In this document: positions 51,778 to 54,579 of the stretch, piece after piece | Layout of the letters: the number at the start of each line of letters is the position of its first letter | Numbering within the stretch: position 1 is the stretch's first letter | Origin: Thermococcus barophilus MP | GTDB lineage: Archaea; Methanobacteriota_B; Thermococci; Thermococcales; Thermococcaceae | Reading direction: 5' to 3' | Assembly: GCF_000151105.2 (NCBI RefSeq) | Contig: NC_014804.1 | Coordinates: 434,001-498,000, forward strand | Length of the DNA stretch: 64,000 bases | Position numbers and translations under genes: made by a program | The notes under the pieces: model-generated | The model's input: the letters and a program-made list of their open reading frames with translations, nothing else | Databases searched by the model: none | Told to the model about the DNA's origin: nothing

Positions 51778-52006
51778 ATCAAAAATATTTGCTGCTTTTA
51801 ACTTCATTTTTTTGTGCATCTCTTTTGGACTTCTGCAGTGCTTTCTTCTAGAGTCTTAGTGATAGAGCTTCATCCCTCCTTTAACAGCAAAACTAATCTT
51901 TTCCTTGCTTTGCATTAATTACAGAATTAGATTAATTATTTAATTCGTTAATTAAATCATCGACAAACATTTAAGCGCTTTTATGAAAATTTATTCGGTG
52001 GTTGTC

Positions 52007-53149
52007 ATGAAGGCTGTGAAAGCAACTCTTTTATATGATGGATTGGGCAATCTCAAAAAGAACATCTACATTGTTTTTGACAAAGAAATTAAGAAAATCA
52101 CAAAAGAGAAGCCCAAAGATGCTGAAATAATAGCGGAAGGAGTTGTGACGCCCGCGTTTATTGACGGACACTCACACATTGGGATGGAGCGCTATGGTGA
52201 GCCCTATCAGGAAGGAGAAGCAAACGAGCAGATGGATTCAGTTCTGCCTTTAGTTGACGCTTTGTACTCAATTTATATGGACGACAAAGCTTTCAAACAC
52301 TCAATTGAGTTTGGAGTTCTGTACTCTTCAGTTCTACCAGGAAGTGGAAACATCATCGGAGGAAGGGCTGTTCTGATTAAAAACTATGGAAGGGACATCG
52401 AGGATGCATTTATGAAGTACGTCGGCGTTAAAGCGGCTTTTGGGTACAATCCAAGGTCAACTAAGGAGTGGAAAGGAACAAGACCGAGCACAAGGATGGG
52501 AGCAATTGGAATTCTCCTGAATTGGCTCATAAAGACTCAGAAGACAATTGCTCTGCTTGAAAAAGGTAAGAAAGAGCCTGAGGAGATTGAACCAACTGTT
52601 GAAGCATTAATCCCAGTTTTGAAAGGGGAAGAGCCTCTGAGAGTTCACGTGCACAAAGAGGATGATATAGCAGCACTGCTCATGATAAAGCGCAAGTTTG
52701 GGCTTAAGATAACCATTGAACATGCTGGTGATGTTCACAGCAAAGAGACGTTTGAGAAGATCAAGAAAGAGAATGTTCCATTGATCTATGGTCCATTCGA
52801 TTCTCTGCCCTACAAGGTTGAGCTGAAGCATGAAGACTGGAAGAATGCTAAATACCTCATTGAAGTGAAGCCCCTCTTTGGGCTTATGAGCGACCACCCG
52901 GTAACGCTTCAAGCAAATCTTTACCTGCAATTGAGGCACTTCATAAGGTTAGGAATGAGCAAGGAAGAGGCGATAAAGATCATCACCCACAACAATGCCA
53001 AAATCCTCGGGGTAGATGACATTCTGGGAAGCATCGAGAAGGGCAAGTGGGCTTCGCTTGTCGTCTGGAATGGTGACCCGTTCCACATGGAGAGCTACCC
53101 AACGCATGTATTTGCTGAAGGCAAATTGATTCACGAGTGGGAGGTTTGA
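52007..53149 (+). CDS. Amidohydrolase family protein
   Basis: A 380-residue metal-dependent hydrolase. Metal ligands are in AFIDGHSHIGMERYG (HxH near residue 48), VHVHKEDD (near 218), EHAGDVH (near 243) and the Asp in MSDHPVTLQ (near 300); GSIEKGKWASLVVWNGDPF is the C-terminal motif of the imidazolonepropionase/prolidase-like branch. The substrate is not known. GGTGGTT upstream selects ATG 52007. An A/T-rich palindromic stretch (51935-51955) lies in its promoter. Convergent with tiaS. Confidence 0.86.
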   Translation: MKAVKATLLYDGLGNLKKNIYIVFDKEIKKITKEKPKDAEIIAEGVVTPAFIDGHSHIGMERYGEPYQEGEANEQMDSVLPLVDALYSIYMDDKAFKHSIEFGVLYSSVLPGSGNIIGGRAVLIKNYGRDIEDAFMKYVGVKAAFGYNPRSTKEWKGTRPSTRMGAIGILLNWLIKTQKTIALLEKGKKEPEEIEPTVEALIPVLKGEEPLRVHVHKEDDIAALLMIKRKFGLKITIEHAGDVHSKETFEKIKKENVPLIYGPFDSLPYKVELKHEDWKNAKYLIEVKPLFGLMSDHPVTLQANLYLQLRHFIRLGMSKEEAIKIITHNNAKILGVDDILGSIEKGKWASLVVWNGDPFHMESYPTHVFAEGKLIHEWEV

Positions 53150-53165
53150 GATTTTCTCCTTTTTC

Positions 53166-53204
53166 GTTCACGTTTTGTGAACAGATTGTTCATGATTTGT
53201 GAAC
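53166..53204. repeat. Tandem pair of 17-base palindromes
   Basis: GTTCACGTTTTGTGAAC (53166-53182) and GTTCATGATTTGTGAAC (53188-53204) are 15/17 identical, each a near-perfect palindrome, and start 22 bases apart, about two helical turns. They lie between two convergent genes. A degenerate third copy is at about 53246-53262. The rest of the gap (53150-53286) has a T-run and no gene. Confidence 0.65.
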
Positions 53205-53286
53205 TTGACTTACGCTTTTTTTCTCTGAGTTGCCTTAAGGTAGTTTCATGATTTTTCATAAGAATCTACATCTACAGGGATCACAA

Positions 53287-54555
53287 CTACTCTAAAATCT
53301 TCTCCTCACCAAGCGGTAACACCAAAGGCCTTGATAGATGCCTCCTTGCATCTGGTGGGACTTCGTAAATTTTCTTTTGCAGCTTTCTTGGGACTTCAAC
53401 AGGAATCAAAACTTTAGGCATTTTATAACCGCACTTTTTGCACTTCAGGTAATCCCCCTTGCTCTTCATTGTTCCACCACATTTTGGACACTTCGGCTTT
53501 CTATACTCAATTTTCTTAGCCAGCTTTACTGGATAAAATTTCTCAAGATTGAGCGTCAAAACACCTTCAAACTCCTTTACTCCCCCAGCCGCTATAATCT
53601 CATCCCCTTCAATCAGCATTCTTACGTATCTTCTGAACCCTTTTGTCGGTTCAAATGCAGCAACCCTCAGCCTTCCGGTTCCATCGTCAACTTCAAAGAA
53701 GACGTGCCTTCCTTTTTCCCAGTAACTCTTTACAACTTTTGCTTTAATTACAGCATTATCGAATTGTTTAAGATCTGCAATCTTTTTGAACCTTAAATGT
53801 TCATCCGTGCTCTGATTCGTCTTAAAAATCTGGTAAAATTCGAGTGGCTCTTCAATTGTTATGCTTTCAAAAGCCAGAAGAACCTTATTTTTGTCAATTC
53901 CTCTAATGCCAACCAGAACAGGGTCTTTGCCATGAGGGGTGATTAAAACCGAGCCCTTATATGGATCAACGTTATCGTAGGTGAAGGGATAGAACTGCCT
54001 ATCCATCTCAAAAACGCTCTCTCTGTTTACCTTTCTTGGGGTTCCCCAAAGCCTTCTTTTTCTATATGCCAAAAGCTCATAAGTAAACTCTTTAAGAGGA
54101 TGCCCAATTGCCGCCAATGCTCCGACTATTCCTCTTCCAAGTTTAAATTTGTAGATTTCAGCATCAACGTCTTTAGCAACTTTTTCTGCTTCTTCAATAC
54201 TTATGTGCTCCCAGATAGCCCGATAAGTAAACTCAGTCAGCTCTTCTGGAATTTCCCCCTCCAAAAACACCACACCCGGATTCGTGTTCTCATGAGTTAG
54301 ATCGGCAAGTTCTTCAACAAATTCGAGAACAAGATTCTTAATCTTTGGAACATCTTCTTCATCAGCTTCAAAGCTCATTGCAACTGCACCGTTCCCTCTC
54401 GTCTTGTAGGGAACGTTGGGATTCAGCCTGATCAGCTTCGGCAAATCTAAGGGCTCCGCTAACCGTGAAATTTCTCTATAGAGCAAAGCTCCAAGATATG
54501 TTGTGCACATGCCATTTGGTGAGTCAGTGTCGTCGAGACCTATGTGAAGCATCAT
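53287..54555 (-). CDS. tiaS: tRNA(Ile2) 2-agmatinylcytidine synthetase
   Basis: A 422-residue enzyme that attaches agmatine to C34 of the CAU-anticodon isoleucine tRNA. It begins [20 protein letters not shown] (kinase domain with the phosphate-binding DDTDS), has the FLD and central domains, an OB fold (about 270-340) and a C-terminal zinc ribbon ([24 protein letters not shown]). No ribosome binding site is present; a TATA-like TTTTAACG about 25 bases before ATG 54555 suggests a leaderless mRNA, with the promoter inside the end of the upstream gene. Confidence 0.95.
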
Positions 54556-54579
54556 CAAAGCGTAGAAAAGAAGAGAACG

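Follow-up and report, generated by a model that had tools for sequence, protein, structure and literature searches.

HEPN/MNT gene pairs are already known, as are toxin-antitoxin operons that regulate themselves; the nearest studied examples are SO_3165 and AbiEi (PMC4621449, PMC3985639). In the class I MntA/HepT system of Shewanella oneidensis (SO_3165/SO_3166), PMC4621449 describes an MNT antitoxin that binds and represses its own promoter, in which palindromes lie near the -10 and -35 elements. AbiEi of the AbiE system is presented in PMC3985639 as a winged-helix-turn-helix (winged-HTH) antitoxin that is paired with a nucleotidyltransferase and represses its operon via two repeated promoter sites. 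Class II HEPN/MNT pairs have been reported to be commoner than class I in archaea. In PMC2701414 and PMC7641770, MNTs are described without a DNA-binding part and class II without biochemical study, and PMC2701414 regards the antitoxin as unlikely to be a transcription regulator, suggesting instead a DNA-binding component in trans.

The operon considered here encodes a nucleotidyltransferase with a fused winged HTH (wHTH-MNT) and, behind it, a HEPN protein. It shares with class II HEPN/MNT (PF05168/PF01909) the gene families, the GSX10DXD motif and a HEPN protein without RX4HXY, but its nucleotidyltransferase bears an N-terminal winged HTH and it has a strict tandem-palindrome operator, which sets it apart from class II as portrayed in PMC7641770 and PMC2701414. 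SO_3165 differs in that it has no recognisable DNA-binding domain, two dissimilar palindromes and a HEPN partner of another family (PMC4621449). In AbiE, according to PMC3985639, separate genes encode the wHTH protein and its partner nucleotidyltransferase, the latter is the toxin, and the sites are 23-3-23 inverted repeats, whereas here 17-base palindromes recur at 22 bp. Searched by titles and the starts of abstracts, the open-licence literature yielded no wHTH-MNT/HEPN operon with a tandem-palindrome operator, nor orphan copies of such an operator. Here we describe such an array in the window, by which we mean the whole 64,000-nucleotide stretch of Thermococcus barophilus MP DNA that was analysed. 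G-numbers denote Thermococcaceae genomes (G000 being that of the window), L-numbers loci and g-numbers genera.

Results

Two exact palindromes behind an amidohydrolase gene

The array occupies a 137-base gap between two convergent genes, an amidohydrolase gene (Pfam Amidohydro_1; 51983 to 53149, plus strand), at the end of the array from which the presumed wHTH-MNT gene would once have begun, and tiaS (Pfam TiaS domains; 53287 to 54558, minus strand). A preliminary description had recorded two GTTCA-n7-TGAAC units at 22-base spacing in this gap. We indeed found both to be exact 17-base palindromes of the GTTCA-N7-TGAAC type, GTTCACGTTTTGTGAAC at 53166 to 53182 and GTTCATGATTTGTGAAC at 53188 to 53204, with a 5-base spacer, AGATT (53183 to 53187), that sets the 22-base period. 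The weaker third copy placed at about 53246 did not hold up: the best further match (53244 to 53260) mismatches at 4 of its 10 arm bases and lies out of the 22-base register; when 81-base stretches were drawn at random from the window, 79% contained an equally good match, which is the chance level. A genome-wide search for such pairs, also proposed in that description, returned 1 exact pair at 22-base spacing in the 2.06 Mb genome, where about 3e-6 would be expected from base composition; besides this pair, 2 single exact units occur elsewhere in the genome.

In minus-strand orientation the array reads GTTCACAAATCATGAAC-AATCT-GTTCACAAAACGTGAAC, the unit at 53188 to 53204 being unit 1 and that at 53166 to 53182 unit 2 of the intact operator, and it differs at 2 of 39 bases from units 1 and 2 of the three-unit operator of G011. 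A GAAAAA stretch of partly conjectural significance adjoins unit 2 (53160 to 53165, minus strand); in intact Thermococcus operators GAAAA or AAAAA separates units 2 and 3, and in the window unit 3 is absent.

Rfam gave no match in 52900 to 53600 at E values up to 5, a sigma-70 promoter scan of the region found nothing above chance, and a scan of the region for intrinsic or bidirectional terminators (a G+C-rich hairpin with a T run) returned 0 sites, the mean in shuffles being 0.9. AAC-n5-GTT may resemble the SurR site. No remnants of a wHTH-MNT or HEPN gene were detected at the window locus by tblastn. Across G000, the search for a cognate wHTH-MNT gave weak matches only, in the nucleotidyltransferase part (best E 3e-6, residues 82 to 149), and the search for a wHTH acting in trans gave weak generic HTH matches only (best E 3e-4) and no close wHTH.

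As defined here, an operator array of a wHTH-MNT/HEPN operon has at least two GTTCA-N7-TGAAC units, a 5-base spacer and a 22-base period, and stands directly before the start of a wHTH-MNT gene. The window array shows all three sequence features, but directly behind it lies the end of the amidohydrolase gene, not a wHTH-MNT start, and we therefore term the site an orphan rather than a working operator of such an operon.

Intact arrays precede a wHTH-MNT/HEPN operon

The preliminary description had named a unique array not conserved in relatives as the result that would refute it; arrays in fact recur across the Thermococcaceae. A pair search allowing up to 3 mismatches gave matches in 57 of 94 Thermococcaceae genomes, against 3 in a backward control. 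With exact units and spacers of 0 to 20 bases allowed, 47 of the 94 genomes held a pair, and all 71 exact pairs had the 5-base spacer (backward control, 0). Relatives having any exact pair hold 1 to 3 per genome, at wHTH-MNT loci or at comparable sites that lack the operon. An intergenic position and a tandem arrangement of palindromes could suit a chromosome-organising protein, as the preliminary description had proposed, but the single pair in the window's genome and the few, specifically placed pairs of its relatives make such a protein extremely improbable. The broader part of that proposal, a protein-binding array, stands in kind, the evidence pointing instead to a wHTH-MNT/HEPN operator.

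In this family, intact arrays end about 13 to 14 bases before the start of the wHTH-MNT gene, which is followed by the HEPN gene. Arrays of the first kind at wHTH-MNT have three units, and in Thermococcus the array is positioned within an operon. A second kind, GTTCAA..TTGAAC with two units, precedes a paralogous wHTH-MNT/HEPN pair of 46 to 53% identity. This second-kind operator and its gene pair are flanked by a SAM hydroxide adenosyltransferase gene on one side and a cytidylyltransferase-like gene on the other (L130, L131, L221, L222, L223); in some genomes a PIN-like gene replaces the operon at this site, and the array is retained.

Among the proteins encoded at intact arrays, those scanned with Pfam showed HEPN PF05168 beside nucleotidyltransferase PF01909. 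The GSX10DXD motif, taken as a loose pattern, is present in 24 of 25 nucleotidyltransferases, and the Rx4-6HxY motif is absent from all 22 HEPN partners, which thus lack the RX4HXY of class I HepT/MntA. Given PF05168 without RX4HXY, the pairs belong on sequence grounds to class II of PMC7641770. The HEPN protein is presumably the toxin of what would be a putative toxin-antitoxin pair. In PADLOC, all 3 wHTH-MNT proteins scanned match PDC-M05A and 2 of 3 HEPN proteins match PDC-M05B, with modest scores; both are candidate names, and the PADLOC model includes no operator.

An AlphaFold2 model of wHTH-MNT (pLDDT 95.1, pTM 0.84) combines a winged HTH of three helices with a long helix and a nucleotidyltransferase fold. 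Foldseek searches with this model placed MntA antitoxins at the top and winged-HTH regulators (among them IclR-type proteins and HlyU) lower. In the putative recognition helix, SKG(L/F)xS, the S, K, G and S residues are invariant in all 25 wHTH-MNT proteins, a set in which identity to the first sequence falls to 34%; this invariance fits the nearly fixed operator arms, yet the loci were chosen by exact arms.

Of 13 bacterial loci, 11 have a TTGACA-like -35 box that is followed, after 17 bases, by a TAAAAT-like -10 box inside unit 1, and none of 18 archaeal loci scored for these boxes at the bacterial offsets. Because unit 1 overlaps the -10 box in bacteria, a bound protein would cover the promoter. 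This overlap, together with the position of the array before wHTH-MNT/HEPN elsewhere, argues strongly that the array is the operator of the wHTH-MNT/HEPN operon. The same placements bear on the idea that the palindromes act as RNA, forming hairpins or bidirectional terminators that end both convergent transcripts. Although the site lies between convergent genes with T-rich stretches adjoining, and some C-to-T changes in relatives preserve G-U pairs, unit 1 sits over the -10 box in bacteria and so would be partly untranscribed, the Thermococcus array is inside an operon, the strict 22-base period fits DNA helix geometry, and neither a terminator-like site nor an Rfam family was found by the scans above. 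We consider an RNA element very improbable. The bidirectional terminators of the preliminary description lose ground on the terminator scan and on the position of relatives' arrays within an operon or over a promoter, and its promoter of an unseen RNA gained nothing from Rfam.

Distribution across prokaryotes

An exact-array scan of GTDB species contigs returned 77 loci. A wHTH-MNT ORF (profile match) stood beside the array in 29 of them, accompanied by a HEPN ORF in 26 of the 29. The 48 loci without an intact wHTH-MNT at the array comprise 17 of a Prevotella repeat family, 10 Thermococcus orphans and 21 others; wHTH-MNT fragments were found in three of these 21 (L256, L287 and L317), which leaves 18 further loci. 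Besides Thermococcus, wHTH-MNT loci occur among archaea in Archaeoglobales, Methanomassiliicoccales and Methanoregula, and among bacteria in Omnitrophota, Desulfobacterales, Thermodesulfovibrionia, Elusimicrobia, Fermentibacteria, Desantisbacteria and an actinobacterial MAG, with taxa taken from record titles and bins that may be contaminated. Viral contigs held 6 exact-array loci, none with a wHTH-MNT match, and among plasmids a single partial match was found (38% over residues 85 to 156, on a Gloeocapsa plasmid).

The 17 loci of Prevotella MAG RUI320 (L259, L260, L268, L273, L277, L278, L279, L285, L286, L296, L300, L304, L305, L312, L316, L324 and L330) carry tandem GTTCA..TGAAC, often GTTCAG..CTGAAC, with the same 22-base period, away from any wHTH-MNT, and look like an unrelated intergenic repeat family. 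Two Omnitrophota contigs (L263:219-257 and L290:974-1012) have the array with nearly the same right flank and no wHTH-MNT beside it.

Conservation at the amidohydrolase locus

Of the 7 genomes of genus g1, 6 (G000, G001, G003, G004, G005 and G006) have the array, intact or damaged, immediately after the stop codon of the amidohydrolase gene; in G002 an amidohydrolase match was not found. It lies likewise just behind this stop in G093, of genus g6, where it matches the first two units of the G011 operator at all 39 bases. The arms are identical at 20 of 20 bases among G000, G093 and G011. The five other g1 copies are damaged: compared with G093, 1 of 20 arm bases differs in G004, 2 in G005, 2 in G006, 4 in G003 and 11 in G001, which has lost one unit, against 0 in G000. 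The genes to the right of the array vary, and the array stays at the amidohydrolase stop regardless of what is downstream. An oxidoreductase of the pyridine-nucleotide-disulphide type stands there in G006 and a similar one in G005, a similar right-hand ORF is present in G001 and G003 and lies farther away in G093, and the window has none. In the two close relatives this oxidoreductase gene (L006:421-1473, and L007) lies between the array and tiaS, and the amidohydrolase-tiaS gap is a variable spot.

Fourfold sites of the amidohydrolase gene agree between G000 and G093 at 44.6% only, and the identity of all 20 arm bases is therefore improbable without constraint (about 1e-7 at 44.6% and 4e-5 at 60% identity). 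This counts against a dead orphan, since a scar should decay, and it hints that the array may have been, or may still be, read in some lineages. A regulator encoded elsewhere, either a diverged wHTH-MNT or one residing in other strains or passing elements, would then act on the amidohydrolase end or on a neighbour. The constant position at the amidohydrolase stop also favours such a still-read array. However, the damaged copies in congeners (G003 to G006, and G001 with its lost unit), together with the missing regulator, as G000 has no close wHTH-MNT or wHTH, speak against it.

Orphan arrays and the gain and loss of the operon

Two small conserved genes, gene1 and gene2, flank the operon in genera g2 (G007) and g4. 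We read the gene1/gene2 junction in 63 regions from 62 of the 94 genomes: the operon is present in 18, two units without the operon in 30 genomes (31 regions), one unit in 3 and none in 11, including G000. At two-unit junctions, unit 2 is followed by about 3 to 5 bases and then the gene2 start codon. We also considered gene1 and gene2 as binders, but they are nearly universal (90 and 93 of 94 genomes, respectively), and in G000 they lie elsewhere and without an array, leaving the array unexplained by this pair.

A tree built from the joined gene1 and gene2 proteins requires 15 changes in the presence of the operon, which is scattered over the tree in genus g4, and at least 12 of these changes are forced by well-supported branches. 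These forced changes suggest, on sequence evidence, that gain and loss of the operon are frequent and that many orphan arrays may be recent. They bear on whether orphans are still read. Perfect arms in 23 of 30 two-unit orphan arrays of other genomes would fit a still-read array, but with at least 12 forced changes in g4 many of these may simply be recent, and in the orphan-only clade G045/G047/G032/G035 the arrays are damaged throughout. Arm mismatches occur in 7 of 30 orphan arrays and in 1 of 17 operon-bearing ones (17 of the 18, G069 being left out), a difference that is not significant (Fisher p = 0.23). Weighing both sides, we regard an array that is still read in the window as unlikely, though by no means negligible.

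At L256 and L287 the operator is still exact, although the wHTH-MNT gene is broken beyond residue 42. These two bacterial MAG contigs (L256:6381-6506 and L287:5454-5579), nearly identical in appearance, show a lost operon caught in decay.

Discussion

We propose that the window array is probably an orphan operator, left behind after the loss of a class II wHTH-MNT/HEPN operon. At the window locus it is the operator alone that points to this loss, and the retention of units 1 and 2 after operon loss in 30 of the 62 genomes examined supports the proposal. In the intact operon, the first gene encodes a nucleotidyltransferase with a fused ArsR-like winged HTH, and a putative dimer of this protein would bind each 17-base palindrome via the conserved SKG(L/F)VS recognition helix. 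Dimers on adjacent units would sit on the same face of the DNA, two helical turns (22 bp) from each other, and bind cooperatively, and this binding would repress the operon's own promoter. G000 would have lost unit 3 together with both genes of the operon, with units 1 and 2 remaining behind the amidohydrolase gene; unit 3 and the two genes would have stood where the amidohydrolase gene now ends.

A more speculative extension, which we hold to be improbable, is that the operator units have a second role, as joints of a gain-and-loss cassette. Operons would enter and leave at arrays, the same scar would recur, with units 1 and 2 kept and unit 3 and both genes gone, and orphans would be selected since a returning wHTH-MNT could read them.

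The orphan-operator reading ties a hitherto unexplained intergenic repeat to a concrete candidate regulator. One fixed operator design is shared by Thermococcus with Omnitrophota, Desulfobacterales and an actinobacterial MAG, which makes autoregulation by a wHTH-fused MNT testable, and orphan arrays may serve as a marker for lost operons.
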